A DNA stretch of 64,000 nucleotides, taken from NCBI GenBank assembly GCA_963920665.1, contig OY987273.1, positions 4,590,501-4,654,500 on the forward strand, given 5' to 3'. Position numbers and translations under genes: made by a program. Source of the stretch: Straminergon stramineum. Its lineage: Eukaryota; Streptophyta; Bryopsida; Hypnales; Calliergonaceae. Within the stretch, counting starts at the first letter, position 1, and each line of letters starts with the position of its first letter. Shown here one piece after another: positions 6,288-55,785 of this stretch. Below the pieces are notes generated by a model that saw nothing but the letters and a program-made list of their open reading frames with translations, was not told where the DNA came from and made no database searches.

Positions 6288-6389
6288 TAGAAGAAGTAAT
6301 ATTCTATAAATCTACCTAGAATGCAATCCTAGATTATGGCCTATATAAGCTGTAGTCTAGGTGAAAAAAACTTGTAGAAAGCATAGAAT

Positions 6390-13750: not shown

Positions 13751-13756
13751 ATAGAC

Positions 13757-14335
13757 AAAGTTTAGACCGCACGGTCTAAACTGTCTTAGGACTGTTCCAA
13801 AAAATCAAATCACTAGACATAGTCCAAACTACGCGATCTAAACAGATCCAAGACTAGATTAGAAAGTGAGATCTCTGGACATAGTTCAGACCGCGTGGTC
13901 TAAACTGATTAGAGACTACACCAAAAAATTAGATCTCTAGACACAATTTAAATCGCGTGGTCTAAACTGATCCAGGATTGCATTAGAAAAATAAAGCTGT
14001 GGACACAATTTAGACTGCGCAATCTAAACTGTTCCAAGATTGCATTAGAAAATTAGAGCTGTGGACACAGTTTAGACCGCATGGTCTAAACTGTTCCAAG
14101 ACTGCATTAGAAAAATAGAGCTAAGGACACAGTTTAGACCGTGCGGTTTGAACTATTTACAGAGATCTATGTTGCTCGACATATTTGACCACGCGGTTTA
14201 AACTGTTCAAGGACTGCATCGGCAACATGAATATCGGAAAACAATTCAAATCGCATAGTGAAAACTATATGGATAATTATTACGTCGAATTCTTCAAGTT
14301 CAAAAAATAGTTTAGACCGCATGGTCTAAACATTA
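13757..14335. repeat. Tandem palindrome array 1 (62-bp period)
   Basis: The unit is an inverted repeat with 10-bp arms GTTTAGACCG and CGGTCTAAAC around a 2-base centre. Copies lie near 13,760, 13,820, 13,883, 13,945, 14,007, 14,069, 14,131, 14,182 and 14,310. Six successive units from 13,820 to 14,131 are spaced almost exactly 62 bases, and the spacer (GGACACA...TTCCAAGACTGCATTAGAAAAAT) is also repeated. Variation keeps dyad symmetry. It is upstream of the minus-strand copy-3 gene, and the same palindrome recurs at 54.5-55.8 kb. Confidence 0.8.
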
Positions 14336-28185: not shown

Positions 28186-29050
28186 GTTAATGCACAAAGA
28201 AAAGCACTCCACCATACAGCACCTTGTCCATCAATTGTCCCATTATCACCTACGAAGAATACAATAACCATGAGTGTGAAAACCAATTGATCATCACAAG
28301 AGAGCGAGCTAGATACAATCGGACTCCAAAAAAGTGACTCACTTTCATTGGCTACAGTAATAATGCATTCTATGAGTAAGTTGCTACCTGTGATGACAAC
28401 ATCTTCAAGGCCTTCGCAATTGATGAGGCTACTGTGCCTTGGTCCAGGAAGCTCTCGGCCTTGACCATAAGACGGTAATCCAAGTATAATTTGATAATCC
28501 TTCATATCCTGAGGGTGAGCATAAACACCTTTAAGTTACAACAATTGGTATTTGATGAAAAGCCTAAAAGTCGAATCAAGCCCTCTCATACCACGGAAGA
28601 ATCTGGAAATCAAGCTTAATATTTGGTTTCCATCTAGTATTTACTCAAAAAGTAGAAAAGTTCAAAGTAAAGTTATTATGAAATTATGCATGATGAAATA
28701 TGTTTTCTAAAGAACTCGGAGACTGTACAGTTAACTAACATTCAAAAGAACCCATCTCTAGGTACTAATGATGGTAGATCTGCATAGTACCACAACTATG
28801 CATCAAGTAATAAGATTGGAATTCATCTCAAAAGAATGGAACACGCCTGAATGGACATAAAACAAGGTTCATAACCACTGTCTGCCATTTATTGCCGAGA
28901 CATTCATTTCGGGTGCCGAATCCATACTTGAGATCCGAGAATTGTAGCCTTATTCTCTAGAAAAAGGGTTAGATGACTTATCAATTTGATGCTGCTCGTG
29001 AGCCATCGTCCAACAGAAATGTACAATTGCACGCCACCCTTGTCAGCACA
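28186..29050 (-). pseudogene. Polygalacturonase-like gene (GH28), part downstream of the hAT insertion
   Basis: Three minus-strand exon pieces join with consistent phases. The first, 29,050-28,928, encodes CADKGGVQLY...ISHLTLFLENKATILGSQ and ends at a GT donor. The second, 28,508-28,388, encodes DMKDYQIILGLPSYGQGRE...EDVVITG. The third, 28,249-28,186, encodes DNGTIDGQGAVWW. Family landmarks of plant glycosyl-hydrolase-28 proteins are evident: ADKGG, the LTSHLTLFLE-type strand, LPSYGRGRELPG, VVITGDNGTIDGQG and WW. These proteins cut or modify pectin in the cell wall. The catalytic half (with NTDGID and GDD motifs) is further downstream and was not found. The N-terminal part is 18.2 kb away at 47,283-47,571 because a hAT element lies within the exon. 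Confidence 0.85.
29043..29050. other. Target-site duplication, left (TCAGCACA)
   Basis: Eight bases immediately outside the left end of the hAT element. The right-hand partner at 47,283-47,290 is TCAACACA, one mismatch. Eight base pairs is the standard target duplication of hAT transposons. Confidence 0.9.
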
Positions 29051-29400
29051 TAGGGTTGACAAGGCGTCCTGACGCAGCCACCAACGTCCGCATCCGCGAC
29101 CCCCCCGGACGTCCTGTGACATTCGCAAAATCGGGTTTTTACCCTGGGGTAATTTCCCGTCCGCAACCCCGTTCGCACCGCCGTCCGTGGTTTCTGCGCC
29201 CCGTCCGCCATCTTGTCCGCCCATCCCCGACCCCGTCCGCGACCCTGTTCGCACCGTCGTCTGCGGTTTCTGTGCCCCGTCCGCCATCCCATCCGCCTGT
29301 CCCCGACCCCGTCCGCGGATTCTGCAGCCCGTCCGCCAATCCGTCGACCCGTCCGCGACCCCGTCCGTGGTCTTTGGAGCCCATCTACCAACCTGGCCGA
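29051..29400. repeat. GC-rich GTCCG subterminal block, left end of hAT
   Basis: Dense runs of GTCCGC, GTCCGCGACCCC and close variants in an otherwise AT-rich area. The block includes the inverted end and the TTTACCCTGGGG palindromic site near 29,139. hAT transposases bind short subterminal repeats, so these are the expected binding sites by analogy. Confidence 0.75.
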
Positions 29401-29964
29401 CTGCTTAAGACTCCCCGAATTTAGTCTCTATCTTTATTTTTTTATTCTAAGAGAATTTCTAAAGCGATTTTATTTTTGAAATTTGGTACAATTCATGCTC
29501 ATTTCTAAGAGTCCTTAGCAATGAACAAAAAGAACATTGCACTTTACAAATTTGTAAAGAGAAAAGTCATTTATTTTCGTAATTCATTTTTGAGTGCTGC
29601 AATAGAATTTCAAAGGATTTTTTTAATAAATATACAAAGAACCGATACTCAAAATAACAAATTAATTACAATTTCAGGTTTAGGAAAATATTGGACACAC
29701 ATACATTTTGTAACCCATTCATTTCGAGCTTAATTTCCTATTTTCCTTTGTTCATTTTATGAAAACAATGCAATGAAAAAAAAATTGAGGGTCTAAATTG
29801 GAAACCCAAAGGCTTCTAAAAATCCAAGTGCCATAAAGTCCTAAACCTTTTTGAAAAAACACTAAAATTGAATCACTCTCATTTGTGATGAATTTAATAA
29901 TTACTTCTCTTCATAGTTGATTCATTATAAGTATACACACTAAAACAATAAAACCACAATTGCT

Positions 29965-30894
29965 TTAACCCCTAAAGGACCATTGTTCCCTCGGGGGACA
30001 AAATGGATTTTAGGCAGGTTTCTATGACTTCAATTTTTAGTCAAACTTTTTGAAACTTTCTCATAAGATAGAAAAACTGATAAGCTTGGTGGGAATATAA
30101 TTTTTATTTCAATCGGTGCCCGAGAGCAAAAGTTATGCCATCTTAAACATAATTTTCATGTCACCGGGCAGAAAAATAAATCCACAAAAAATTTAAATCT
30201 AATTTAAAATTTCTTTTTTCTTATAGATTATATTTTTGTCTACATGTGAAGCTTTGATTCATTCCATTTGGATTAGTAATGTGAAAGTTATGAACAATAT
30301 TGTTTTTCGGGCAATATGAGCATCTTCTTGAAAAAATAACTTATAGGATTCATTTTTGAATGCAATTTTCACAATTTTTCAAAAAAAATTGTTTGACAAA
30401 GTTAAATTTGTTTGCTAAAACAATCTCACCATTGGGATTATTGAGTTTCAATCCCATCTTAGAGCTATTAATGATTTAGTTTTTCATGTAATCTTGGACC
30501 TACTTCTACTTAACAATTTTTTAGAGAATGAAAATCAAGAGTTTTTCTTTAGAATTTTTTTTCCTAGAACATCAACTCAATTCTTCAACACAAAAAATTT
30601 TAAATTCACAGTCCATAGTGCAAAAAATTTCAACAATAGGTGGTCAAAGTCATCTGAAATTGCAGGCCAGTGTTCAAAAAATCTTCTTTTTCCAACTTTG
30701 AATGCTATATCTCTCAATCTGTGCGGTCAAAATTCATGAAATTTTTACCACATGTTCTCAGACAAATAAAGTACAAGATCCAATGGATAGATTTTTTTAA
30801 ACTAGTTTTTGGGGATTTTATAGGTGAACGCAACAGAAATGGCAGTTTTGAGTGGTTTTTGACAGAAAAATGGCCTTGGTCCTTTAGGGGTTAA
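29965..30894. mobile_element. TTAA-flanked non-autonomous element, family 1, nested copy
   Basis: TTAA flanks both edges (29,965-29,968 and 30,891-30,894), and the ends read CCCCTAAAGGACCA and its inverse. A near full-length relative lies at 51,127-52,060 and fragments at 33,520-34,060 and 36,860-37,255. TTAA targets and CCC-type ends fit the piggyBac superfamily, but no transposase is encoded. It sits inside the hAT element, so it jumped in after the hAT lineage had this form. Confidence 0.75.
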
Positions 30895-31339
30895 TGGGTT
30901 GTCATCATAATTCAAATATCAATGGAATTGTTGGAACACAACTTCTAAGAAGGTCCAAGTAATTCCATATCATAAATGAAATGGTCTTCTTCCAAGACTT
31001 CTTCCAAATGAAATAGAACGGGCTCAGAAACTTTTGCACCCACACATCATACATCATGCAATTTGTCATACAAGCTTGTCAACTAAATAACCATCTACAT
31101 TCAAGAAGAAATATTGCACTTTGCACTCAAACAAGAGATATTTTTGATTTGTCAAAAATTGATACTCATTCAAAAACAATTCAAATACATGGAAAAATTC
31201 AAAATGTATGTCCAATTTCACATATATTGACATACTCTAGGGGTGCATATATACTAAGCAATCTACATGCATAAATCCAAAGTTCTACATTTATTGAATA
31301 TTTATAAAACTCTATATAGTGCACTCTTGCACTATATTA

Positions 31340-32823
31340 CTAATATGAATGTCGGAAGTGTTCATCCGGCATAGGCCAATTGAATTGGCTAGTGAACCGA
31401 TTGATGATGTGATCCAAACCACCTCGATAACCATCACCTCTTTGACAAAGCCAGTCCAAGCATTGGTGAAACACAATTCCCAATTGGTAGTGGCTAAACA
31501 TGGCCATTGCATTTGTTTCCCGTTGCAATTTGCTGTAGTTCTCTGACATGCATTGTTTATTGATCCTTTGAGCTATTTTACCAATCGCATATTCCTCCGA
31601 TGCACGTGATAAATGTGGAATGATTTCTACATTTGCATCTCTTCTATGCAAGTATGCAATGCTTGGATCCACCCACCACCTCCTTGTTAAAGTTTCGTTC
31701 AATTCACTTGCAGATGTGAACATATACAAGGATTTCATTGGTTCGGTAGCTACAGTAGTCATGCCCCAATCGCAAATTCCAATGTAGACACGTGATTCAT
31801 CATCAGGAAAATGAAACATGATGTTGTCTGGAGAAATATCATTGTGTAGATGTCGAGACACATGTACTGCATTCATGATATGCACCAATGCCCAAGCAAG
31901 CTCGGTGCACTTCTTCCGAAATCGAGCGAGATGAAAAGCTTTAGTCACATCGGACTCTGTTGGGTTCGAATACTGTAACCAAACATATATGTTGTTTGGA
32001 TAATTGTTATCCAGGTTCAACATTTGCCGAAGTGTTCCGCCATTCCACCAATACGAGTACCCTTCATTTGTTCTTGCATAAACTGCAACAAACCGTATGA
32101 CTCCTGAATGTGGAATCCTCACTACCATTGATTCATTCTGATGTTCCAACTTTGCAAGTTGAGGTTGCGTACCATGGTGGTTGGATATCTTTGCTGCGAA
32201 CTCCCAAGATGGAGCTATCCCTCGACATCCTTCAATTCTTACCCTCCGAATCATTGCATATCCTCCCTTCATGATTCAGTCATCTTGGGGAATCACCCGT
32301 GCGGTGTCTGGAAGTGCTATAAGATGACGTCTACCCATATCCAATTGAGCAAGACCCTCATCGCTAGTCCACCAACCCAATGACCCTCGTCTATTACGCC
32401 TCTTTGCAAATGGGGCGCAACGCCCAATAAACAATTGAGCTTTGAGAATGACTTGCTCAAAGGCTTCATCATTTGCACGATGTTGTTTCTCGTATTTTCC
32501 GAGAACCACATCAGCGTTCCACAATGCATCATGCACCTTGTTCTCCAAACATTTGTTGAAACCCCTCTTCTTCGTCTCATGTTGCCATTGCGGAACGTAT
32601 AAGGCATCCAACATTCTTTGCGTCATGTCTACCTTGAATTTGGATGGACACTCCTCTCCATATCTTACATATTTTGTGTCAAGAGACATAGTGGTTTCCA
32701 ATTCATAGAATTTGCAATGCATTCGGTCATGAATGCTTTGCATGCATCAGATGGAATTTCCTTACTTTCCACCTCGTGTACCACTTGTTTTCCCTTCGCC
32801 ACCTTCTTCGATCTTGGCATCAT
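31340..32823 (-). pseudogene. Protein-kinase-like gene of the hAT element, split by one in-frame stop
   Basis: Two minus-strand frames (32,743-32,276 and 32,272-31,340) are in phase and are separated only by a TGA at 32,276-32,278, so one gene of about 467 codons is broken by a nonsense change. The second half has kinase landmarks: a possible beta-3 lysine in FAAKI, the catalytic loop HNDISPDN (HxD...N as in HRDxxxxN) about 120 residues on, and CDWG in the place of DFG, followed by a segment RRWWVDP in the activation-loop/P+1 position. Similarity to known kinases is remote and the glycine-rich loop is not clear, so activity is uncertain. An ATG at 32,823 opens a basic stretch (RSKKVAKGK) in another frame that may be the original start. 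A GTCCG-rich block lies just upstream. Confidence 0.7.
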
Positions 32824-32999
32824 GATAAATTTTTAATACCCGAAACTTGTAACTAAAACTTCGAAGTTCGCTACAAAAAATGCCAATAGTGGGGCCCCAA
32901 AATAAGACTTCTGCCTTCCCAAGGAGAGGAACCAATGGAGGACGAACCACCAAGCTCTCCACTCCACACTTGCAAAACGCAAGGGGCAAGGCAAAAGTG

Positions 33000-33370
33000 A
33001 TTGCAGACGGGCCGTCCGCCCCTCTTATACGGGGCGGACGACTCGTCCCCGTCCGGTCGTTCGGCCGCACTCCGACCGCCTCGAGATGGCCGTCCGCCTT
33101 GTCATGGCCGTCCGATTCCGGGGACGGTCTTCCGTCTGCCCCGAGCCAACCGTCCGACCGTGCGGACGGTCATCCGTTCGCCTCAAGCCGACCATCCGAT
33201 CAGTAGGACGATCAGTGTCCACCAAATGCCCAAATCCGACGGCCGGCTTGTCGCGGGCGTCGTGACCTCCTCCGATCGGACGGACGGCAGGCTGTCCGCA
33301 CAATCGCACGGTGTGGATGGCGTAGATGCGGCAGCCCGTCCGGCGACGGCAGACGCATGAAACGAGGCGG
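33000..33370. promoter_or_regulatory. GTCCG/CGGAC-rich block upstream of the kinase-like gene
   Basis: About 370 bases of GTCCG, CGGACGG and CGTCCG motifs on both strands. It begins about 180 bases upstream of the ATG at 32,823 of the minus-strand kinase-like gene. The same motif fills both ends of the element and the regions upstream of the other three genes. Role as promoter or transposase-binding operator is inferred. Confidence 0.6.
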
Positions 33371-33519
33371 ACAGAAGAGATGAATTGCACGATCGGAGAT
33401 TTTAATTTCTCTTGAACATCTCTAAGTCAAACATAGGTATCATATTCAACATTTCAGTTTCAAACCGAAGTAAGAATCAAGTAAATCATCTATCATGGAA
33501 ATGAAAAAAAATTATAAAG

Positions 33520-34060
33520 GAATAGCCAGTGATGTTTGCTTGTTTGAAATACTCTCACCATTGAGATTCTCATGTTTACATAATTCTATCTTAAAATTAT
33601 TAATGTTCTAGTATCTATCTTGAATATACTCAACTTATCAATTCTCTTATGAATAAAAACTAAACATCTTTTGGGGGAATTTTTCTTCCTACATTCTCAT
33701 GCTCTCATATAAATTCTTCAAGTCTTCAATATACAAAATTATAAAATCATACTCACAAGTGGAAATATTTATTGTTTCAATAATTAGAAGCCAAAAATCT
33801 AGTCAAGCAAATAGCAAAATCATTTGTTTCAGTCACCTTGAATGCAAATAGCCAAATATCTTACAATCTATGTGGGTTAAGTTTTTGAAATTACTTCTAC
33901 ACATTCATAAATTGCTATAGTACAAAATCATACAATCCGACATGCCAAAAGCATTGTTCCTACATTTTCTAATTCTTTGTAATTGAAATGGCAATTCAAA
34001 ATCACTAAATTGTCTTCGATGGAAAAAAGCCTTCAGACTTCTAGGGTTTAGGGTTCAATT
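33520..34060 (+). repeat. Diverged fragment of the family-1 TTAA element
   Basis: It resembles 30,410-30,700, with shared ordered landmarks ACTCTCACCATTGAGATT, ATCTTA.A..TATTAATG and TCTTTTGGGGGAATTTTTCTTCCTA. Ends are lost. Confidence 0.4.
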
Positions 34061-34460
34061 TCTAATAGCAAATGAAACTAAAATGGTGGTTTTCACTATT
34101 CTACAAACCTCTATTGTATATTTGGGACATCCTTTGCATTTGCAATTCACCTATTCACATTGAATGATTGAAATGAGAAAATTATAGAAAGGGGTTCAAT
34201 ACATTTTCCATTTTCACAAATACCCATTAACCCATAGTCATACATCAATGGTATTAAATCCTACAAATTACGTGAAAAAAATATCGCTTTATTAAAATAT
34301 AAAAATACAATGTATTTGTATCAAAATCACAGAAACGTGATTACAACTCATCAAGAGCATTGTGCTATATTTGCCGCACTCTACCATCTATGTACATTAC
34401 AATGAGTGAACCATACAGTAAAACAAACATAAGATGACTAGAATACCATACTCTACTTAA
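34060..34460. other. No feature recognised
   Basis: AT-rich sequence downstream of the minus-strand gene at 34,466-35,554; probably its 3' untranslated region. Confidence 0.35.
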
Positions 34461-34465
34461 TTACT

Positions 34466-35554
34466 TTACTCGGAATCCGAATCCGAATCCTTCTTGTCAT
34501 TTGGGCCTGAAGGATGTACTCCAATATATGGTCCACCCCCATAGTTGTAACCATATCCACTTGACGCACCTCCTTGTCCATATTCATTTCCATAAGAAGG
34601 ACCTCCAAAGGTTGGAGGAGGAATTGGAGCACTTTCACTTGATCCGCCATAATAAGGGCCTCCCTGATGCCCATATGAACCATGTGTATTCGATCCAGAG
34701 TAGTATTGAGAGCCTCCTTGGCTAGAACCACCATACTGACCATAGTGTGTCGGTCCATGGCTTCCTCCTATACTTTGAGAGCCAACTTGGGGGGTGTTAC
34801 CATAATCTGAACCACTTGTCCCATCTCGTGATCCACGTGCATTATAGTCATGGTAGTAGGACCCATCATGTTGTCGACCCCGGTCTTCCACACTTCGACA
34901 CATGGCCTCTTGTATTTGTTGTTGGTACTCAATGTCTTCACAATCTTCTCGACGTTCATGTCTCTCACCAAATGTCACGGGTGTTGGATCATCATCATCT
35001 TCATCTTCATCTGACCAATCATCTTCATCATCCTTCAAGACGATCGAAGGAAGTCCTCCATAGCCTCGATTGGACCACTCCGGCATGCAATCGCTTGGTC
35101 CAACCTAGTTAGTAGGAATTATGGCTTCCTCACGAGTCAAATTCCTGACATTGCGCCCTGCAACCTTGCGCCAATCTACTTCTTTATGGAGTACTATCTC
35201 CGCCCAAATCATAGCCATGTTTGAATAGTTCATGACGTTTGGTTTGGAGCTTGGTAAACCTGATGCAGATGTTATCTCCTCGTAGCGGCGAACAAAGTGT
35301 TTGCTCTTACATGTGGACATTTGTCCCTCCCAAGGACGAACTTGCACCTCTGCGCGATCATGTGGCCATATTTTGGAGACGTGTGTCATTTTGACGTACT
35401 TCTTGCATGTTGTGCAATCCCATATTTTCTTGGGCTCCTTTTCCCATCCCTTCTCCGCAACGCAAGTTATGTCTTCCAAATCTCTCCAATTGATCTCTTG
35501 TGATTTCCTCTTCTTACTTCCTCCACCACTTCTGCGCGACATGATAACCTCCAA
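34466..35554 (-). pseudogene. hAT-element gene: Cys/His N-terminal domain with Gly/Ser/Tyr-rich tail
   Basis: The frames 35,554-35,105 and 35,086-34,466 are in phase, divided only by a TAG at 35,105-35,107. The likely start is ATG at 35,541 (MSRRSGGGSKKRK). The N-terminal 120 residues contain CTTCKKYVKM, H(V)SKIWPHD and CKSKHFVRR, a Cys/His pattern that is shared with the N-terminus of the gene at 39,020 on the other strand. After the stop comes a short acidic run (near 35,000) and then a tail rich in Gly, Ser and Tyr with GGSS, YYGG and SYG units, ending in DSDSDSE. Such tails are typical of disordered, phase-separating RNA- or DNA-associated proteins, but no direct evidence supports this. 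Family unknown to me. A GTCCG-rich block lies about 340 bases upstream. Confidence 0.7.
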
Positions 35555-35879
35555 ACCTCAATTAATAATGTACCAAAAGGATTACAAAGTTTAAATCCAA
35601 TTTCCGCTCGCTTTGGCCCAATGTACCAAATGAAAAGTAAGAATTTGGATTAAAACAAATTCCACCTACTGTTACTGACAACCAAATCAACTATAAACTT
35701 GAACACCTTGAGTTTCTGACAACCCAATCAACTCAAACACGGTTCAAGTAATTAAAAACACTAAATGAAGTTCATAAAATTAAAGACTTATAAGTTGGGG
35801 CAACCCCCTAATCCCTCAAACCAATATGTGATAAAAAAAAGTTAATACGAACACAACCGTTTACGCACCAAGCCGGAAG

Positions 35880-36480
35880 GGGCGCGCAGATTCCCGAAGG
35901 CATTGGATCACCCACTCCGGAAGGGAAACGATTGTAAAGAAATGAGCCGTCCGCGCCGCCATTTATGCGGTCGGTGCTTTAGGGTATGCGGATGGTGCCG
36001 TCCGCATAGGATGGCACGAAGGCGGACGGGCAAATCGGGCGGTCTGAAATCGTGGTCCGCTGGATCGCACGGTCACCGACAAGCAGCGGACGGAGCAGCG
36101 CGGACGCGGACGAGAAATGCGGACAGACTCCCGACAGTCGAACGGAAAATGCGGACGAGGACTACGGACGCGTCGACGGGGACTGTGGACGGCGACTGCG
36201 GACGCGCGGACGGAGAGGAAGGGTAGAGGGCAGAGGTGGGCGGGACCGCGGGAGGGAGGTTGTTTTTCAATTTCAGAATCCTTACTTGGGCGGACGGGCG
36301 GATAGCTGGTCGGGCGGATGGGCGGTCGGCCAAACGGAGAGAAGCGTGGGAGGGGAGGGGAGAGCTGGGCGGGAGGGAGGGAGAGAAGGAGGAGTTTTTC
36401 AATTTTTGAATTGGGGGACGGGCGGGAGAGGTGTTTTGAACTATGTGGAGATGGGTGGACGGATGGTTTAGCGGGAGAGC
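35880..36480. promoter_or_regulatory. CGGAC/GTCCG-rich block upstream of the Gly/Tyr-rich gene
   Basis: About 600 bases with dense CGGACG motifs, followed by a G-rich stretch (near 36,345-36,395) with runs of three to four G. It lies upstream of the minus-strand gene ending at 34,466. Confidence 0.6.
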
Positions 36481-36859
36481 TTGCATTATATGGTGAATTA
36501 AGAAAAGTAGAGAAATTATTTTTAATATGTTATGTCATGAGGTTTTAAATTAATACAACTATCAAAAGTGACATCCCAAAGTCTCTTGTTTGAAAAATCA
36601 TTTGACTTGTAAATCAAGAATTCAAATAAGTGTGTAAAGAAATTTTGTTGTACATTGGTGCTTTTGTACAAGTTTGTGATGTCAACAATACTTTTTGACT
36701 AATAGAAAATGAAATTTGATGTTAAGATTGTAACAAAAGCCTTCGTGGTTCAATTTATAATATTTATTATTCTTTTTCATGCCTTTCAAGGAAAACAATG
36801 AATCTCTAAACTCCCAAAGGCCCTACACGGCTACACTCTTATACGAGACTCTTGTGATA

Positions 36860-37255
36860 TGTGATCTCAATTAAATGATTTATTTCTAAATTTTTGGTTC
36901 AAGATTCTTCACTCAAGAGTTAAATTTTTCAATACGAGATATTGTAAAATGAAATTCATTAATGTAAAATATCTAAAGTGAAGAAAATGAGAAGCCCAAC
37001 AATCTAGTATAGCAAGATGGAAGAAAAGATTTCTTAGGCTTACTTTAAATGCAAATACCACGCGCAATGTATGTACTCAAAGTTTTTCAAGATGACAAGA
37101 TAACTCAATTAACTTTTATACTAGTCTAGTATAAATTCCTATGGTTAAATATGCCCAAAAATCACTTTTTAAGATTTTTGTCTCTTTGCATTCGAAATGG
37201 TAGTTTTGAGTGATATTTGATGGGAAAGAAAGCATGAAGGCTTTAGGGGTTCCAG
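36860..37255 (+). repeat. Diverged 3' fragment of the family-1 TTAA element
   Basis: The right edge AATGGTAGTTTTGAGTGATATTTGATGGGAAAG...GGCTTTAGGGGTT matches the right end of the 29,965-30,894 element, without the final TTAA. The left edge is unclear. Confidence 0.45.
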
Positions 37256-38255
37256 ATTTTACAAAATCCTAGGCCTACATAACTACAAAACTAACATAAG
37301 CAATTCAATCAATATTGTAAATTTATAATTTAAAAGATATGATATTATGAACCTTTCTATATAATCATTTGCAAAAAAGTTTTGAGATGAAACACACTTG
37401 TAATCATTGAAGTATGACCATTTCTAATTTCTTGTAATTGAAAACTCATCATATTTGAAGGTCAATCACATTGTACATTACCTAAGCTCTAATATTTTGG
37501 GGTTGTGATCAATTTATGATCGGTTTACAATTTAGGATGCACACAAGTATACATAGGTATAAGTGTCAAAGTGTATATGATATGAATTTTCAATTCATTT
37601 TGTTGTATAAATGCTTACTTTAATCTTGTCCACAACATTTCACATTACATTAAAATGCTTGAATCATTTTAGCACCATCCCATACATTTGATAAATGTTA
37701 TAATAGAATAATGAGATAATATAATTTCTTTTAGTCTATACATAATTTCATATTGGTGTTCTAAACTATGAATACATTCGACAACAAAAATTGAAGACAC
37801 ACTCCAAGTTATAATTGAATGTTCCACATTTATTTAATGGCTCATAATAAAGTGATAATTGAGGTGCTCAATCTTAAGAAAAATTGAAACCTACATGAGT
37901 AATGTACTCACATGAGTACATGACAAAGTAAGAAAGGTCTACATCTGCATTATATTGTCATGATTGCATTCCAAACTGCAAAAGAATCATAGTCTCATAG
38001 GTAAAACATATTTCACACATCGCATCAATAATTTTGAAAATTTGTGCAATGTTATAAATTCAATATGTACAATTGAGGGTTGTATAATTCTGAATTTTTT
38101 TGGAGGGTTAGGGTTTAGGGTTTGGAATTTGGAGAGCATGTTTAAATGTGGGAAGGAATATCTGGAATTATCTTTTCTTACATTAATATTACATTGGATA
38201 CTTCTAGCATTCAAGAGTATTTTTTGTACATGAATCTATCCTTCTCAGAATTCAA
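37255..38255. other. No gene recognised (spacer within the hAT element)
   Basis: AT-rich spacer between the two divergent gene pairs of the element. A brief GGGTTTAGGGTTT run occurs near 38,108. Confidence 0.4.
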
Positions 38256-38259
38256 TGCT

Positions 38260-38800
38260 TTAGGACTGCCGGCGGACTGACGTCAGGTAGGCTCCATAGC
38301 AAGGTGAACAGTGATGGATGTGGTTGGTCGGGAACGGGGGACGGCGTGAGCGGACGACTAGGTACGGGGTCGGTCGGCAATGGTGAACGGCCTGAGCAGA
38401 CGGGATGGTCCAGGAGCGGCCCGCGGTTCTGATTGGCGGATGGGAGGTCTGGTCGCGGTTTGCAGCGGATGGGATTGTCCTGGAGCGGCGTGCGATTCCG
38501 ATTAGCGGACGAGAGGTCCGGTCGCGGTTCGGAGCGAACGGGATGGTCCAAGAGCGGCCCGCAGTTCCGATTGGCGGACAGGAAGGCTGGTCGCGGTCCG
38601 CAGCGGACGGGATGGTCCTGGAGCGGCCCGTGATTCCGATTGGCGAACGGGAGGTCCGGTCGCAGTCTGGAGCGGACGAACAGTTGGCCGTCTGCCAATC
38701 CCAATGGTCGCCCCACGTCTGCCGCAACGGACGGCAGGTCCGGATCTGCTTCGGGGCGGACGTTTTTTAGGTTTGGTGGTGGACGGGTATATGGGGGGAC
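38260..38800. promoter_or_regulatory. CGGAC-rich block upstream of the RING gene
   Basis: About 540 bases with repeated units of about 62 to 64 bases (GATTCCGATTGGCGGACGGGAGGTCCGGTCGCGGTCCG-like) as well as plain CGGAC motifs. It ends 220 bases upstream of the ATG at 39,020. Confidence 0.65.
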
Positions 38801-39019
38801 GGCCTCCTCATTTGCTCTCACTTCTACTCTCCTTCGGCGCCAGGTTGGATGTGCTACTGCTGCTTTATGTGTCAGTTGCTCCTACAGGGTGGAGAGTGGG
38901 GGTCCTTAAGCTTTTGTTACTATTGCTGATTTACGCTGTTACTTATTTACACACATCTCACGGTATTCACGTGCCGTGGTACTATTTTTCGAAGGGCTCA
39001 AAAATTCTAATCATCTATC

Positions 39020-42000
39020 ATGGCGGATCAAGGTGTTTCTACCAACAACGGGAGGACTTCAGGAGGTGAAAAAAAGAGAGGGACTAAAGCGAAGGGGGCC
39101 CCTCATGGGCTTCACTATGAGATTTTAGATGACCCAAACATCGAAGCGGAGAGCGGTTGGGAGGAGGAGGAAGGGGAATATTGGACCTTCAAAACATGCA
39201 AGAAGTATGTTAAAATGTACCACATTGACAAGTTGTGGCCTCGGGATTGCCACGTGGTGCATACACATGGTTTTTGTTGTAAGCCACGTAATTGCAACAA
39301 TAAACATTTTGTGCATCGATTGGAGGAGGTGTGGCGGACGCTATTTGGGGACAAGCCAAGGAGTAAGGGATGCATAAATTATAGCGTGGCGTGCATGGTG
39401 TATGCAGAACTCATTCTAAACCGCAAGGTAGATTGGAGCACTTATCCATCCTAGGTGGATTCTCCACTTTTACTTCAACCCAATCAAAAAGACATTCCTG
39501 ATCTGTACGATTCTCAGGCAGAACCGAGTGAACCAACGAAGACCCCAAAAGTATTAAAAAATACTACAACACGTACAACAAAGGTCTCCGAGGTTTTAGG
39601 TGATGTACTACAATTAAGGCCTGCAGAAGTGGCACAACCTTGCATGGAAGTGAGCAATGTCTCCTCGGGAGGTGTCGGCGGAGAGGTTTTTGTAACTCCT
39701 CCAATATGCTTCGTATCCACACCGAATGTGATAACATTGGGTGAACAAAGCATGGCTCCAAGCAAGGAAACTACCACGAATGAAACAACCTTGGGCGGTC
39801 TAGACTTGGCTGCAAACAAGGAAACAATGGTAGAAGAACGTGGGTCACCTTTTTCGCCAGATGGAGAGGTCAATGAGGAACAACTTGCAAGGACCAATGC
39901 TAGAATTTAGGGTTACATAGATAGTAAAGCTCTTGAGAGCTTGGTGGAATATGCAACTCCGATTTCTCAGCTGCCAACGACGCCAAGGCGAAGCCAAACA
40001 TTGAGCCCAATTCGAATGTTGAGTCCACATCAAAACGTAAGCCCAAGTCGAAGGTTGAGCCCAAGACAAATATTAAGCGCAAGAACTAGAGGGCATCCAC
40101 ATTTGGCAACTTTAAGCTCGGCTCAATTGGAGATTCTTTGTTCCATACCCACCGCCAATCAATTGGAAAAGCTGTTAGAATGTTGTAGTCATTGGCGAGT
40201 ACTAGCACAACAACATCTTCATTCTAATCCCGAAAATGAGGTAGGCAGTTCTAGTCAACCCGCAAGAAAAGGGGGCTGGGGTACTATTTCGCAAACCGCA
40301 TACAGATTGAGAACTTCAACTCAAATGATAGCTGAAATTACTCCTTGGGTTAGGGACGTGGCAGAGGAATTTTCCAAAATGGCACCTGAATTGTTGACTG
40401 GTGCCTTGGCTTTTTGCAATTTCACTGAGAAAGTGGCACCAATTCTTGAAGGTGGCGTGATGAACTTAAAAAGTTTGATGGCCTTAGAGGAAGACATTCA
40501 TCAGCTGAAGATGAAGTGTGAGGACTTGGAAATGAAGCTGCAGCTGTCGCAGAAAAACATGGAGCAAGAACGTTGTAACAAGGTGGTTCAAAGAAAGCGC
40601 ATCGAAGAATTGGAGCTCGAAGTACAAGAGTTGAAGAGGGGTAGGCCTACCATGGACTCCGTGATCATTCCATTTGTGCAAGAAAGTCAAGAGAGCGATC
40701 AACTCTCTCTTCCTTTTGAGAAGGCAAAAGCGGTGGAGACGTCCATCATCTTGAATTTGGATGAGGTTGGGAATGACAAGAAATGTGAAGAAGCAGTACG
40801 GACCATCATTCCTAGTATTTCCCGTACATTGCAGGATGCTTCGACACAAACGAAAGGTAGTGAGGTGGAGGAGCTACAGTTGAAATTAGATGAAGCAATT
40901 CAAGAGAAAATCCTTGTTGAGGTGGAGTTGGACCAATTTCAAAGAATCATGGGCATGGAGGAATGCATGCCGAAGAGCGGATTAGAGTCTCGATGGTTGG
41001 CATGGGTACAAAAACTCCAAGACAAACCCTCTGTAGTATCTCGAGCAATGAAAGGGCTTATGAAATTGGCAATGAAGTCGGATGAAGAATGCAATGCCGT
41101 GGAGACCTCTTTGCTTCAGTTCAAGAAAGTGTTTGATGAACATCCAAGGGGTTCCACAGAAATTACATGTTGGGGGGACATGGATGACATGTTTGAGCGG
41201 TTGAACCACACAAAGAAGGACAATGTTGCACACATCGATTGGGACTTGGAAGTAGAGGAAGGGTGGGTCCCTTACAACACGCTTTTAGCACACATCAAGG
41301 AGAAAGAGAAGACAGTAGTGCATGCTTGCGATCCAGCCCTAGGAATCTTGAAGAGTCATTGTAGCCTTTGCCAAGGTCCTTTTGGCCCTGAAGGAGCCCT
41401 AACCATGGGCCAATGTCGCCACACTTTTCACGTGACATGCATCGTGAAAGCATCATTCATTCGTTCGGTTTGTGCCGAGTGTCGTTCTCTTCTGAGCCCT
41501 CGGTTCTATGAAATGCTTGGTATCTTGGAAGATATGCCCCCCGGCCACGAATACAACCGATGGACCCTTCCTCTTGATCAAGGGCCATACCAGTTCCAAA
41601 ATTTCTCGCATTGGGGGCGACCTCTCACGTGGGATTCAATTGAATGCCGACATGGATTGTATGAGGAGTCTGGAGAGCCAGTGGATCCTTTCATGTGGAT
41701 GACCGTTAACAGAGAGGTGGAGTTGCGGGCCCGGGGTATTGAAGATGGTGAGGCTTGTGAATTGTTTTGTCGCAACATGGGGGGCCATTGGAGTGTGCAA
41801 CACAAGAAGTTTTTTCAGTTTCCCGACAAAGAAGTGCGAAAAGGGCCCAAAAAAACTTGGATAGAGGTAGAGCATGCTCAAGAGTTCAATGAGCAATACG
41901 GGGCTTATAATCACACTTTGATTGGTAGGGCCCTTTTCTTGTCAAAGTTGGAAGAAGCTACTAAAGCTCATGCTCTTGTTGAAATAGATGGGGAAACAAC

Positions 42001-42412
42001 TACAGGGCATTCATTTGTGGAGGTAGCTGGGGCATTTGACAAGAGGATAGGTGACATTATAGCTAAATGGAGGGGGTTTCTATTGGCCGATTTTCGACCA
42101 ATAGGGTTACCTATCGAAGCTGATGACGAACAGGTCAATGTGTTCGTAGATCGAGTGGATGCTGCGTTGAGGGCCTTGAAGGTTGAAGAAGTAGATTTGT
42201 CTCCAAAGCAAAGCTCAAAACGGAAGAGAGAGGATGACGATGACGATGACCACTCTTTGGAAACCAAAGGACAATTTATAGCGTTGGACATGGAGGTTAG
42301 ATCCGGAGGAGGTGTTGTCTACAGTCCTGGGTCAAATACTCGACGAATGAGTGCAAGACTTTTGGCTAAGGAGGGGTCATCTCACGATGTAGGAGAGGGT
42401 AGTGGTTCTTAA
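39020..42412 (+). pseudogene. hAT-element gene: Cys/His N-terminal domain, coiled coil and RING-H2 finger
   Basis: One plus-strand frame spans 39,020-42,412 (about 1,130 codons) and is broken only by TAG at 39,452-39,454 and 39,908-39,910. The start MADQGVSTNN is chosen because the following domain aligns with the minus-strand gene at 35,541. Domain order: residues about 57-140, TCKKYVKMYHIDKLWPRD plus CNNKHFVHR; then Ser/Thr/Pro-rich linker; a coiled coil near 40,480-40,650; and a RING-H2 finger at about residues 780-830 (41,360-41,505) with C-x2-C, C-x-H-x2-H-x2-C and C-x2-C. The C-terminal region contains RRKREDDDDDD, a possible nuclear localisation signal. RING-H2 fingers commonly act as E3 ubiquitin ligases, so this could modify a host or element protein; that is inference. 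It has no relative known to me as a whole. Codon use is uniform through the stops. Confidence 0.75.
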
Positions 42413-42583
42413 GTATAAGAGAGGCTTTCCTTATTTTATTATGTTTAAATGTTTAATAGTATAGAAGTATACCAGTGAGTGTGGTTTGAATGTTATAAGG
42501 GTTGAGTACTACTAGTAATTCATTGTACTCATGATGAATTTTGATTTGTTTTGAAGTTCTTTATATATCCAAATATGAAATAT

Positions 42584-42643
<60 letters not shown>

Positions 42644-42870
42644 TTGAATTGATCATTTGTTTTGCTTTCTTTTAAGTTCATGCTATGGTGATTTATGAAG
42701 AACAACTTTTTGTGAAGTATGTTTTTTTCATGCTCATCTAGAAATTTTAAATTATAAAACCCTTTGACAAAACCATAATATTCTAAAATCTCCTCATTGG
42801 CTCATTCCATCCATAAATCCCTATTTTGTCCCACATCTCTTGAAGCATTGAACATTTGAACAATTGAACA
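42413..42870. other. Spacer with a (TA)n microsatellite
   Basis: Between the RING gene and the next GC-rich block. A perfect (TA)n run of about 56 bases lies at 42,586-42,641. Confidence 0.7.
42586..42641. repeat. (TA)n microsatellite
   Basis: About 28 uninterrupted TA units. Confidence 0.95.
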
Positions 42871-43045
42871 CGACCTACCCCGCCCGTCCGCCTTAAACCA
42901 CCCGTCTGCCTGTCCACCCGTCCACGCGTCCGCGTATCTTCGCGTCACTCCATCCGCTTGTCCGCATTGTTTGTCCGCCCGACCACTAGACCATTCGTCC
43001 GCTCGACCGCCCGTTCGCTACGCAATCAGGCGTCGGCGGATAGTA
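42870..43045. promoter_or_regulatory. GTCCG-rich block upstream of the transposase gene
   Basis: Short block with CCCGTCCGCC, GTCCGCTTGTCCGC and related units, ending about 290 bases upstream of the transposase ATG at 43,338. Confidence 0.6.
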
Positions 43046-43337
43046 TGTTCTGTGGATTCAAAAATGGTCTGCAACGGTGAGGCTGTTTGGGAGACTATAA
43101 TTGTAGGAAAGAAGTCATTTGAGAGCACTCTTGAAAACTGAATGCTAAGATTTCCAAGGGCTAGGAGCTGCAATTTTTGTGTCCCTTGCTTGGTAATGTA
43201 TAGTTCAGTGGACGAGAGGGCCTTGATTTTCAAGGCTTTGTGCACTCATTTTTTATTATATTTGGACATTGTTCATTTGGTCTTCACATTTTGAATTTAA
43301 TTCCAATATACAGAATTAAAATTTGTGCCTTGCCACT

Positions 43338-46300
43338 ATGAGCAAGGATTGGTCTGGTTGGTATGGTACCGCATCAACCGGTAAGGTAAAGTGCAAGGCT
43401 TGCAACTCGGTGTTTGCGAAGAAGATAAGCCATATGTTGAGCCATTTAGGATATGAAGGCCCATCAGATGTTTGTGATATAGGAGTGAGTCTTTGTTCGC
43501 AATTGACGCGAGATGTTCGAATCCTATTTCTTCGATCTAATGGGGCATTCCCGTAGAGACCAATCATTGACAATGTAGATGTTGGTAGCATGCGTATGGT
43601 CAGGAGGGATTTTTTAAATGAGAGGGATATGGCGTGTTCTACTCAAGAGGACTCATGCGCAACACCGGAAGAATTTGTTGGTGTAGGATCCAAAGTAAAC
43701 CGAATTACAAAAACATCCAGCGATCGTGACACTCCAAGGGCATCAGGTAGTAGACCTCAAAGACAGAGTAGTCTAGTCGATGGCTTTGATTCCGCAGCAA
43801 AACGCAATTTGAATGCAGTGTGGGCCAATTTCTTCTATGCGGCAAACATACCATTTGCCGTAGCTCGAAATCCGACATTTAAAGAAGTAGTGAAAAAAAC
43901 AGTCGAGTACTGTGGGCCCTACGCTCCACCATCGTATCATGATTTACACCATAAATTACTTGACCAAGTGAAGACTGTCATCAAAACAAAGCTTCATAGT
44001 CAGACCGAAGATAGCATTCAGAAGTTTGGAGCAACATTGTCTATTGATGGATGGAGCTCGGTTACCAATCGACCATTGATAAATGCCATGCTTGTATCTT
44101 CTACGGGTGAACAATTTCTAGGATTGGTGGATACAAGTGGAATCGAAAAGAATGCTCCTTTTTTGGCCTTTGTCTTGGAAAAGTTTATAGAACAAGTAGG
44201 CCCCACAAATGTTGTGCAAGTGACTGCAGACAATGCTCCTGTAAATCCGACAGCATGGAATATGGTGTCGAGTAAATATCCACATATTTTTTTTCAAGGT
44301 TGTGTAGTGCACGCCTTGAATTTGTTGCTTCAAGATTGGGGGAAGCAAGAATGGTTGAATGAGCTAGTGGAAAAGGCCCAAACCGTTGTGAAGTTCTTCT
44401 GATTGCGGCATATGCCGCTAGCTATATTTCAAAAGCATGAAATGAAGAATAACTTATTGATGTCGGTGAAAACAAGATTTGCCTCCAATTTCTTCATGAT
44501 TTCTCGTTTGTTGAAGGTCAAGACTGGATTGCAACAAAGTGTGGTGGATCCACAATGGGTAGAATATGTGCTCAAGTTACGGGACACGAAGAACGCAAAA
44601 TCTCATACAAAGTCTCGGGAGGTGAAGAAGACAATTTTAGATGAGCATTTTTGGGCCCGTGCCACTAATTTCCGATAATTGATGGCTCCTGTGGTGTTTG
44701 GTCTACGGGATTTGGATGCAAAAACACCATGCATGGGCAAGGTATTGCACATCATGAGGAATTTAGAGAAGCATGTCTTCTCTTTACGAAAAGAGCCCTT
44801 TGGTTTGTCCTCAGACTTAGCCATTCCTATCGAAAAGGCGTTTGGTAAGCGACGTGAAATGGTAGAGACCGATCTACATTATGCAGGAGCTCTTTTGAAC
44901 CCTTACCTTCTTCATGATAAAGAACTAGCTGACGATCAAGATGCAACAAATGCATGCAAGCGCGTTATCAGGAAAATATGTCAACCAGGAACTTATCCTG
45001 ACGTAGTGAAGGAGTTTGTAGCATTTCGACATCGAGATCCTCCGTTCCACGACATGTTGGATTCGGCTGAGCAGAAATTGTCGGCACATGCTTGGTGGGA
45101 TTTTGAAGGTGCATGTGGCAAGCTCATTGCTCCAATTGCAAAGAGGATTTTGGCCCAACCGGTGTCATCATCTTCATGTGAACAAAATTGGAGTAGCTAC
45201 TCTTTTGTTCACAACAAATCCCGAAACAAGTTGAGGCCACAGAGAGCAGCCAATTTGGTGTATGTATACACCAATTCCAAAGTCATAGCCGCATCGAAGG
45301 AGAAGGATGAAAAGAAGTGGTACCATGACAATGTAGAGTCCGAAGATTCGAAAGGGCCTATTTCGGAAGACGAGGATGATGAATCTGTATCTGATGATAA
45401 AGATGTTCTGAATTATGATATCGACAATTCTGACGAAGAAATGTTTGAGACTCCTAATCAAAACAATGAAGACTTCGGAGTCACGGATGGAGACATGTAT
45501 GAGTTTCGATCAGATGAGGATGATTGCAGGCTTGATGATGATGTACCTTCGATAGCTAGATTTGTGGATGGAATTGGATTCATGAGTAGAAAAAATCTTC
45601 TACCAAACGTGGAGGATACGTATGTAGAGATAACGGCGACCAATAGGACAATGGTTGCGAATGATGGGAGTCTTGAAAAGGATGAAGTGATTCCCATTTC
45701 CAATGCTCCATCCCCGATAATGGCGGTAGAAAAAAATGACCAACATGAAGACAAAGGAGGATGTGAGGTGAATGTTGAAATGAACGTGTCCAATGGAATT
45801 GTTGCGTCAATAGTGGTATCGACAAGCAAGAAATGTGTTGAAGCAAATATTGGAAATGCGAAACCACACGAAGTACAAGACAATGTTGAAGCACGTTCGA
45901 TGGAGTCAGGCGGCCCAATTTTTGTCAACAATGGTGTTGGCAAAATGCACCTCATGGAAGATTCTCCCGAACCACGTAGCACTCCTCCATGTGCACTATT
46001 TAAAAGCAATGCCACGACATTGGATGGTTCAAGGAAATCACGGCTTGGAAAAAGACATTTGTCTCCTACGAAAGAGATGAGTTCCGGAGGCAATCCAAGT
46101 CGAACCATTTTATCATGTACCGATGATGATGATAAGGATGAGACATTGGCTTCAATGTTTATTCAACATCGGGGCCATCCACCACGCCATTCCTTGAAAT
46201 CATTAGGCCACACATCGCAGTCTTTGAATGCAATGCAGTTAATTATTCAAGGAGCGCCAAAAGCAGAGATATCACAGGGTGAAGACTCCATTAAAGCTCG

Positions 46301-46643
46301 TAAAAAAAAAATGATGCAACCCTTTGCTACCTCTCCAAGGAAGAGACCGAATATGGGTCGAACCCCACTTGATACCTATCAAGTGGGGTCAAAGAAGAAA
46401 ATGAAAACAATCCCTAGCCTTAAGGAAGGCATTGGTAAGTCTATATTAAGAGCCAAAATGGAGAAGAAGACTCGTAGATCAATGAGATCATTGACATCTA
46501 CCCAAGTACAAAAAGGAGTGAAAATTGTACAATCTTCATCAAACGACATGGAAGAGACATCTAGCGATGAAGACGACCGATGGGGAACTAGATGTGAGAG
46601 TAGCAGGGCTGAGGTGAAAGGAGATAGTGATTACAAGCGTTAG
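43338..46643 (+). pseudogene. hAT transposase, with three in-frame stops and a long charged C-terminal tail
   Basis: A single plus-strand frame (about 1,100 codons) is broken only by TAG at 43,554-43,556, TGA at 44,400-44,402 and TAA at 44,676-44,678. The start is the ATG at 43,338 (MSKDWSGW). Domain order: BED-type zinc finger (CKAC...H-x3-H, about residues 18-40); DUF659-type core with SIDGWSSVTNRPLINAM (first catalytic Asp), VTADNAP (second Asp) and CVVHALNLLL; then the hAT C-terminal dimerisation region with WWDFEGACGKLI and SSSSCEQNWSSYSFVHNKSRNKL, which provides the catalytic Glu zone. It performs cut-and-paste transposition of the element. After the dimerisation region comes an unusual tail of about 450 residues, acidic first (near 45,340-45,540) and basic later (near 46,300-46,500). 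The stops fit C-to-T changes of CAG, CGA and CAA. A GTCCG-rich block lies upstream. Confidence 0.9.
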
Positions 46644-47109
46644 AGATTCAAGGAATGTAGGCTTAGGTGTTTAGGTGCTTATGATACATTGAGCATGTAA
46701 TGGCAATTGATTGTTTGAAGCTTCCATTGCAGTTGGAGTTTGCTTATTGATGTTGAAAATATGATTATTTTTTTTTTAATTGCAAAACCAAGAAGAAGTC
46801 CCCCCAAAATTGATTGTGTTCCTCTTTCTTTGTATGAAGCATGATACATTGCAAGATACATATAGAATGCAACAATTTTGACTTCATGATTGTCATAGAA
46901 TCATAGATTTGGTAATTTTCAAGGTGAAGAGAATTTTGAATTTTTTCTTTAATCCTTTCCCTTGATAATTCATAATTGCAATTATAGTGTACATTTTTTT
47001 GGTTGATTACACTACAAAGGATAGTTCATAACTCCATATATTATTGTAAAAAGCATTCAAGGAATCAAAGTTTACTTGAAGGAGTTGAAGCTTTGTATTA
47101 AATAACTAG

Positions 47110-47282
47110 CCACTAGCCGTTCGCCTGCTCGTCCGCCGGTCTACCCATCCGCTCGTTCGCATTTACCCAGGGTAAATTTGCGGACGGTTTTTTTTACCTC
47201 CCGGAGACGCAGCGTCCGTAGGGTCTGGACGTCCGATTTTTGGACGCGATTTTGCCCAGGACGCACACTTTCGTCAACCCTA
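47110..47282. repeat. GC-rich subterminal block, right end of hAT
   Basis: Contains GTCCGCC, CGTCCG, GGACGG and the palindrome TTTACCCAGGGTAAA (near 47,164), followed by CGGACG-type motifs and the inverted end. It is shorter than the left block. Confidence 0.75.
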
Positions 47283-47290
47283 TCAACACA
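47283..47290. other. Target-site duplication, right (TCAACACA)
   Basis: Partner of 29,043-29,050. One base differs; that base changes an alanine codon (GCT) to valine (GTT) in the duplicated exon piece. Confidence 0.9.
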
Positions 47291-51126: not shown

Positions 51127-52060
51127 TTAACCCCTAAAGGACCATTTGTCCCCTCAGGGGACAATTTGGGTCCGGGCAAGTTTCTGTTGTCTCAATTTTT
51201 AGTGATATTTTTTGGGATTTTTTGAGGTTGTGTATTTTTGCAAGAGCTTTGTGAAGATATATTTTTTTTATTTTAATTGATGACCGAGAACAAAAGTTAT
51301 GGCATAACAAGCAAAAATAGAGTTTGGTAGGCAATAAAGAAAAAATCACAAAAAGTCAAAATAATTTTGTTTTCAAATTTTTTTCTCAAATATTATATTT
51401 TTTTCTACATGTGAAGCTTTATTTCATTCAATTTGGACTAACAATGAGAAAGTTATGGACAATCTTACTTTTTCGGGCAATCTAAGCATCTTCTTGAAAT
51501 AATAACTTGTGGAATTTATTTTTGAATGCAATTTTTAAAATTTTTCTAAAAAAATTCTAAACAAGGTTGGATTCTCTTGCTAGAACAATCTCACCCTTGG
51601 GATTATTGTAATTCAGTTCCATCTAAAAGCTATTAACAATTTCGTTTTTTCTTCAATCTTGAACCCACCTCCTTTTAACAATTTTTTAATGAGTGAAAAT
51701 TAAGTGCTTTTTTCCCTAAATTTTCTTTGTAGATTCTCAAATCAACTACTTAACTTAAATCAATAGAAAATCAAAATCTGTAGTGCAAAAATTCTAAACT
51801 AAAAAGATTCAAAGTCAAAAATCTAGTCAAGGAAGGTGCAAAAAAACTTGTTTTCTTCAATTTAAATGCATATATCTTGCAATCTGCACGGTCAAAGTTT
51901 CTGAAATTTCTTCCATATATTCAAATAGTAGTGAAGTATAAGATCTTATGGTTGGATATGCAAAAAAGAACAATTTTTAAGTTTCTTTTCTCTTTGCAAT
52001 AGAAATGACAGTTTTGAGTGTTTTTTGATAGGAAAATCACCTTGGTCCTTTAGGGGTTAA
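51127..52060. mobile_element. TTAA-flanked non-autonomous element, family 1, second copy
   Basis: TTAA flanks (51,127-51,130 and 52,057-52,060) and ends CCCCTAAAGGACCA / GGTCCTTTAGGGG match the copy at 29,965-30,894, and the interiors align over most of their length (for example TTTCGGGCAAT, GAATGCAATTTT, ATCTCACC...GGGATTATTG). Length 934 versus 930 bases. No coding frame. Confidence 0.8.
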
Positions 52061-54510: not shown

Positions 54511-55785
54511 TTCAGACCGCACAATCTAAATCTCCACAGCTCAATAAAAACTAAAATCAAAAATTGATGAGTCACCAGAAGTCGAAAAGAGGTTCAGACC
54601 GCGTGCTCTGAACTCTCAAACTAGAGGAATACAAAAGTCAACTTAGGTGTGAAAATGAATAAGATGTTAGGCCTCACATAATGCGATTTGAACATGTGCA
54701 ATTGAGAATGAACATATCCCCCCAAATAAATACTCTTTACAAGTCTAATAGGTTTAGACCACGCGGTCTGGACCTATTCAGTCGAATACTGACTCATATC
54801 TACAAAAAAGCAAAAGAGTCATAAAAAGGTTTAGACCGCATAGTCTGAACTATATCGTTCGGATTAAATTAGAATAAAAAGTAACCAAGAGTCAAATTGA
54901 TTGGTTTAGATCGCATGGTCTGAAATCGAGAACCAACGGAATAGAAATTATAATCTAGGTATACAAGTTAATCTGTTGTCATGCCTTAGACTATACGGAT
55001 TGAAAATTTGCCAGTGGGAATGAACTCATATAAATAAGTAAGTCAATATAAATTCAACATAGGTTTAGACCGCATGGTCTAAACCTCTTTAGCTGAATAG
55101 AATAATGACGAGAAGTAACGAAAGAGTAGTCCACTACATAAGTTCAGACAACGCGGTTTGAATTGTATTGTTAGAAAAAAATCATATCTAAAATAACAAG
55201 GACAAAGTCCCATACATAGCTTCAGACTCCACGGTTTGAATTGAATCGATCCAGTAAAATCATAACAAAAGTAACGAAAGAAAAATCCACTACATAAGTT
55301 TAGACTGCGTAGTCTGAACTATATAGTTAGAGTAAAATCATGTCCAAAATAACAAGAAGGAAGTCCACTAGATAGGTGAAGACCACGTGGTTTGAACTAC
55401 ACCGATAGAGTATATTTATCCTCAAAGTATTAGAAAATAATTATATCTGCTTTTGAGATTTAGACTTTGGTCTGATCTACTCTATCAGACTCGTAGAAAG
55501 TTACAACAAGAAACATTTGTCAAGATCATTTAAATAGATTGAAACTGCGATGCCTACAACTTATTACTAGAATCATCCAATTACCAAGATAAATTGACGT
55601 CCCAAATGCAGGACTTCAATAAATGCCTAATTTCTACAACATCAAGCGCTTGACCGAAAATGATACATATAATGACTTATAAGAAGTGAAGTTCAAACTG
55701 TGCGGTCTAAAACAATGTTATATCTACTCATGAAGCTTGCATTTTGAACCTTGTAAAATCCACTTTAGATCGCGTGGTCTGATCA
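54511..55785. repeat. Palindrome array 2, same motif as array 1
   Basis: Units resembling GGTTTAGACCGC / GCGGTCTAAACC occur near 54,511, 54,592, 54,751, 54,829, 54,903, 55,062, 55,141, 55,220, 55,296, 55,376, 55,690 and 55,762. Between 55,062 and 55,376 spacing is about 76-80 bases. Individual copies vary but keep dyad symmetry. Further single copies lie near 57,543, 59,890 and 60,105. The array precedes the plus-strand gene at 56,368. Confidence 0.75.

Follow-up and report, generated by a model that had tools for sequence, protein, structure and literature searches.

A four-gene hAT element with GTCCG motif arrays in the moss Straminergon stramineum

Introduction

The usual description of a hAT element is of a one-gene transposon a few kilobases long, and Starships are giant fungal transposons with a tyrosine recombinase and variable cargo. 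The accessible part of a 2018 survey of plant hATs gives their terminal pattern as [T/C]AGNGNNG, names Gulliver, at 7,144 bp, as the longest consensus and includes no moss hAT (PMC6027215). In the sections available for the hAT7 elements of rust fungi, these encode a TET/JBP dioxygenase, thought to aid escape from silencing, and make 7-bp target duplications (PMC12730594), and VANDALs are presented, in the excerpts available, as Mutator-type elements with VANC anti-silencing proteins (PMC5735166, PMC13317346). No multi-gene hAT of plants was found among the matches listed from the open-access literature searched.

Here we report on an element in a 64,000-nucleotide stretch of moss DNA, referred to below as the window. 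By the features tested the element is a hAT, and it is new in its size and gene set. It shares [T/C]AGNGNNG ends, a target duplication, and DUF659 and hAT dimerisation regions with plant hATs but spans 17 to 19 kb and has four genes, unlike the elements in the accessible part of the survey, which reach 7,144 bp at most (PMC6027215). Like hAT7 in the sections cited, it is a hAT with gene content beyond the transposase; unlike hAT7, it makes 8-bp duplications and has a kinase gene, a RING gene and a third gene, B (PMC12730594), and a Pfam scan of its eight open reading frames (ORFs) detected no TET/JBP domain. It resembles VANDALs, as the excerpts describe them, in being a multi-gene DNA transposon with a short motif dense in its non-coding regions (PMC5735166, PMC13317346), but VANDALs are Mutator-type (PMC5735166). 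With Starships it has in common that it is a large DNA transposon with several genes, but it differs from them in its hAT transposase and recurring gene set, and the scan of the eight ORFs detected no tyrosine-recombinase captain gene.

Results

Boundaries of the element

The window copy begins with the terminal inverted repeat TAGGGTTGAC (positions 29051 to 29060, plus strand) and closes with its exact reverse complement (47273 to 47282, minus strand); both ends read TAGGGTTG and fit the hAT terminal pattern. The element is flanked by TCAGCACA (29043 to 29050) and TCAACACA (47283 to 47290), which are equal at 7 of 8 positions. Past the first 10 bases of the ends, the left and right subterminal regions share 13 8-mers, against a mean of 0.77 and a maximum of 7 in 500 first-order shuffles, and the blocks GCGTCCTG, GCAAAATCG, CGGACGTCC, CCGTCCGCAA and TTTACCCTGGG are common to both. 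The sequence-only reading of this locus had claimed inverted ends at 29,051 and 47,282, an 8-bp duplication with one mismatch and conserved subterminal motifs, and each of these was recovered as described.

In the 64-kb window, six pairs of 10-bp ends with a duplication of at least 7/8 were counted, versus 0 to 5 per shuffle in 20 shuffles. Such ends and duplication alone are therefore near chance and make poor proof in a window of this size, and the local weight of evidence for the ends comes from the additional blocks shared by the subterminal regions. Taken by itself, the near-chance count favors a reading in which four unrelated genes, brought together as a chance nest or by segmental duplication, happen to lie between matching ends, and the other copies in the genome, described below, bear on it directly.

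Gene content and nested insert

All four genes are broken in the window copy, which is an old insertion; the in-frame stops total seven (one in A, one in B, two in C and three in D). Gene D (43338 to 46643, plus strand; stops at 43554, 44400 and 44676) encodes a hAT transposase with DUF659 (PF04937, E 5.4e-35) and a hAT dimerisation region (PF05699, E 1.7e-8) by Pfam. Both regions had been read from the letters alone together with a BED finger, and that last domain was sub-threshold (PF02892, E 0.04, 14.4 bits versus a cut-off of 20.6). Residues D237, D298 and E615 fall in columns invariant in 16 relatives and may correspond to the D-D-E catalytic residues of known hAT enzymes. The protein has a 442-aa tail, part of which was matched in 18 other proteins among 76 compared.

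Gene A (31340 to 32820, minus strand) encodes a protein kinase (Pfam Pkinase, E 1.1e-7), interrupted by a stop at 32278 and a frame change near 32715, such that its 5′ part sits in a different frame. A lysine, two aspartates and an asparagine are invariant across 36 aligned rows, and we take them to be the residues of the kinase catalytic motifs. The structure predicted for a relative (P0014) was confident, with a pLDDT of 84.7 and a pTM of 0.66, and a fold search with this model returned a broad range of protein kinases with poor superposition (TMq 0.32 to 0.40); the kinase profile had no match at E 0.001 among the sequences of solved structures. Gene C (39020 to 42412, plus strand; stops at 39452 and 39908) encodes a Cys/His N-terminal domain, a RING finger, for which the best Pfam model (E 1e-5) fell just short of the cut-off, and a coiled coil, seen in the predicted structure of a relative. 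Relatives of C were found at 1,069 to 1,249 aa; the structure predicted for one of them (P0001) was poor (mean pLDDT 47) and confident mainly at the N-terminal domain, and a fold search with it gave no match at E 0.001. Gene B (34466 to 35542, minus strand; one stop, at 35107) encodes a protein whose Cys/His N-terminal domain is related to that of C (40% over about 120 residues, E 5e-19), with a sub-threshold zinc domain as its only Pfam match. Neither the Rfam scan nor the tRNA scan found anything in the window, and scans of viral contigs with the C, D and A alignments yielded 25, 31 and 42 pattern matches, respectively, and no relative.

A non-coding element with inverted ends (TTAACCCCTAAAGGACCA) and TTAA on both sides, which we assume from these features to be piggyBac-like, is nested at 29965 to 30894 and is not part of the original unit. 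The length of 18.2 kb first given for the locus was right in its ends and takes in this 930-bp insert. Among the fetched copies, 30 in all, 23 including the window carry or run into the insert and one more reaches into it; the insert is cleanly missing from 4, and the remaining 2, both deletion derivatives, do not have that region. Since some copies have the insert and 4 cleanly lack it, the hAT family moved both before and after the insertion. The TTAA-bounded non-coding family has 18-bp inverted ends, with a second full copy outside the hAT element (51127 to 52060) and diverged pieces at 33788 to 33996 and 37118 to 37227. Also outside the element, the ORFs at 2136 to 2783, 4632 to 6311 and 10462 to 11388 seem to be fragments of a single repeated gene, with parts of the first and second regions matching each other in inverted orientation at 68 to 73%, and tandem arrays lie at 13749 to 14154 (62-base unit) and 55113 to 55412 (78-base unit).

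Motif arrays at ends and promoters

GTCCG/CGGAC is concentrated in five regions of the window copy, namely the left subterminal region (29051 to 29410, 33 per kb), the regions upstream of gene A (32990 to 33370, 29 per kb), gene B (35850 to 36470, 21 per kb) and gene C (38260 to 38900, 19 per kb), and the right subterminal region (47100 to 47282, 22 per kb). These densities (18.7 to 33 per kb) cover the window only, with array limits set after the clusters had been seen. The region upstream of gene D (42413 to 43337) holds five GTCCG motifs, or 5.4 per kb, and an AT repeat (42586 to 42641). Elsewhere in the window, in gene bodies, AT-rich spacers and the whole flanks, the density is 0 to 0.7 per kb, and two GC-rich flank stretches have 1.1 and 1.3 per kb. 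The CpG observed/expected ratio is 1.1 to 1.5 in the five dense regions, 0.92 upstream of D and 0.30 to 0.76 elsewhere. Of two further copies, c009 has six GTCCG clusters at corresponding places, and c031 has clusters at the left end and at four inner places and none at the right end.

Further copies and deletion derivatives

The genome searched comprises 326 Mb in 59 contigs, and the gene content of copies is known from a left-end search, a gene C search and fetched stretches. At least 43 matches to the left end were obtained (40 of 265 candidates scored). At 29 of the 30 fetched left-end loci, the alignment starts from terminus position 1 to 4 amid differing 12-base flanks, and at one it starts from position 55; most of the fetched copies begin with CAGGGTTG and some with CAAGGTTG, which is off the [T/C]AGNGNNG pattern. 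For gene C, at least 54 scored matches were found (of 907 candidates), which are 90 to 95% identical, the window's own aside; 4 of the 54 listed have no stop within the query, among them the window despite its stops outside the query. Gene C lies 9 to 14 kb downstream on the same strand at 16 of the 40 left ends listed (window included) and within 35 kb at 21 of the 40, where 0.12 would be expected. At locus L015, fetched as a sixth copy besides the window, the second-half stretch contained no element sequence, and the nearest gene C is 28 kb away. At L014, two left ends with the same orientation are separated by about 750 bp, with one copy inside or beside another.

Five copies (the window, c009, c011, c013 and c019) have both ends, genes A to D in one order and a duplication of at least 7/8, which is exact (8/8) in c009, c011 and c013 and 7/8 in the window and c019. 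Copy c009, of about 19.1 kb, is bounded by the exact duplication TTTGTGGG and has A to D in the same order; its proteins are 90.6 to 92.8% identical to those of the window, and its DNA is about 94% identical over the main blocks and 84% over one block. In c011, c013 and c019, C, D and the right end are present, and A and B were seen in part, in 2.7-kb stretches at the expected place. Copy c031 has four genes with a deletion inside C. Overall, a duplication of at least 7/8 flanks 6 of the 8 copies read at both ends; the poor ones are those of c031 (2/8) and of one short copy (1/8).

These data bear on whether four unrelated genes came together by accident. Besides the near-chance ends of the window copy, such an accident is favored by the lack of matching duplications in c031 and one short copy and by an equal-scoring, inverted pair of gene C copies 26 kb apart (G000:C2:14864685, plus strand; G000:C2:14890955, minus strand), perhaps a recent inverted duplication. 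It is contradicted by the 29 loci, of 30 fetched, where the boundary is exact and the flanks differ, and by the exact 8-bp duplications of three other four-gene copies. A chance nest was rejected for the four genes on the strength of further copies with the same ends, gene order and duplications, and an accidental assembly in either form is now highly improbable. The sequence-only reading had taken the ends as true boundaries of a four-gene, cargo-bearing hAT and proposed looking for the same ends and genes in other copies; the boundaries hold across the fetched loci, and c009, c011, c013 and c019 support the unit as four further complete copies. Thus, the window element is almost certainly a copy of a high-copy, four-gene mobile hAT unit.

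Many copies in the family are deletion derivatives or truncated. Internal deletions were found at 2 of the 30 left-end loci (L025 and L037). Ten more gene C copies were picked by hand from the 54: 9 are followed by D and 8 by the right end, and 5 have A in the 3-kb stretch where it was expected. Of the other five, one is short, with its left end fused immediately ahead of the C array and a 7/8 duplication; in another the left end is fused to position 5641 of the element and there is no duplication; and in the remaining three no left end was found in 9 kb upstream. Since short copies without A and B exist, one of them with a 7/8 duplication, movement would not require A and B in the moving copy, at least when it is mobilised in trans.

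Within each pair of copies, the four genes diverged in step. The dS values for A, B, C and D are 0.048, 0.038, 0.055 and 0.052 between the window and c009 and 0.116, 0.096, 0.105 and 0.116 between the window and c031. With copies mostly broken, dN/dS is 0.55 to 0.61 for A, 0.72 to 0.94 for B, 0.32 to 0.77 for C and 0.40 to 0.64 for D; constraint among copies is moderate at most, and B is near neutral. Both the derivatives without A and B and the near-neutral dN/dS of B would fit a one-gene hAT that captured three host genes once, as passengers that do not serve the element.

Distant relatives

The same alternative draws on the 87 proteins related to gene A, one of them from the moss Ceratodon purpureus and some on very long contigs, where the kinase relatives are also found apart. 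Other relatives speak against it. A scan of genome contigs with D detected three loci, L001, L002 and L003, the latter two with hAT matches by tblastn. On the 6.3-kb contig of L001, a hAT transposase is followed on the same strand by a C-type gene with RING by Pfam and both C domains by profile; the order is D-C rather than C-D, no element ends are in view on this contig, and its terminal stretch, with 3 GTCCG in 141 bases, is a weak echo of the arrays. Loci L001, L004 and L005 (the G001 contigs include C266 and C51) are plant-like transposon genes in a metagenome bin filed as a Synechococcales cyanobacterium, where they are likely contamination, L001 appearing plant-like by content; C51 has one more RING-type relative.

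A contig size of 17,649 bases is common to the best RING match and the best transposase match, and a second such pair has contigs of 8,444 bases; by local density, chance would give 0.0007 exact RING/transposase coincidences in size above 8 kb and 0.1 over all lengths. From these equal sizes we infer RING-transposase linkage in two further relatives. A kinase and a transposase are each on a contig of 27,639 bases (0.003 expected above 8 kb); another kinase-transposase coincidence, at 3,215 bases, has members from different sources and is at the level of chance (0.41 expected over all lengths), and no kinase match is on a contig equal in size to that of a RING match. The deep link is therefore shown or inferred for C and D and once for A and D, not for the whole gene set. 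The RING-linked transposases occupy three separate parts of the tree, with the label not clustered beyond shuffles, and the C-D link would be either ancient or repeatedly acquired.

Discussion

Genes A, B and C belong to the element, since further copies have them in one order, their divergence keeps pace with that of the element, and arrays of the same motif precede them. We consider a unit whose genes serve the element in some way the best account, at a probability of roughly 0.75; the conserved catalytic residues of the kinase also count in its favor. The single capture of three passengers is unlikely: to set against the short derivatives, the near-neutral B and the separate kinase relatives, hAT transposases from widely separated branches of the transposase tree have C-type genes beside them, a kinase and a transposase are each on a contig of 27,639 bases, and the arrays are common to ends and promoters. 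The word cargo, used in the first description of the locus, is apt insofar as the extra genes travel with the element and may be wrong in that these genes look accessory.

An accessory, anti-silencing role for these genes is a reasonable guess by analogy, at somewhat less than even odds. In this reading the gene D transposase would mobilise the 17-to-19-kb unit between its inverted ends and make the 8-bp duplications. B, C or both may recognise the arrays at ends and promoters by means of the related Cys/His domains that they carry, and host or element proteins there could be modified by the RING ligase and the kinase. The arrays would thereby stay free of methylation and all four promoters would remain active, similar to the effect of VANC on VANDAL elements. 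A shade more speculative is a self-contained plant hAT licensing system, in which the kinase, the RING ubiquitin ligase and a small relative that binds DNA would act at element-specific GTCCG arrays, both at the ends and at each promoter. Such a system would defeat silencing and coordinate transposition in a VANC-like manner, but through ubiquitin and phosphorylation.

A four-gene family of 17 to 19 kb, whose RING gene is present in at least 54 copies in a single genome, widens the known range of hATs, and the RING-transposase pair recurring in distant lineages adds to this wider view. The family is also a natural setting in which to test whether ubiquitin and kinase proteins, together with motif arrays, help plant DNA transposons to counter silencing by the host.
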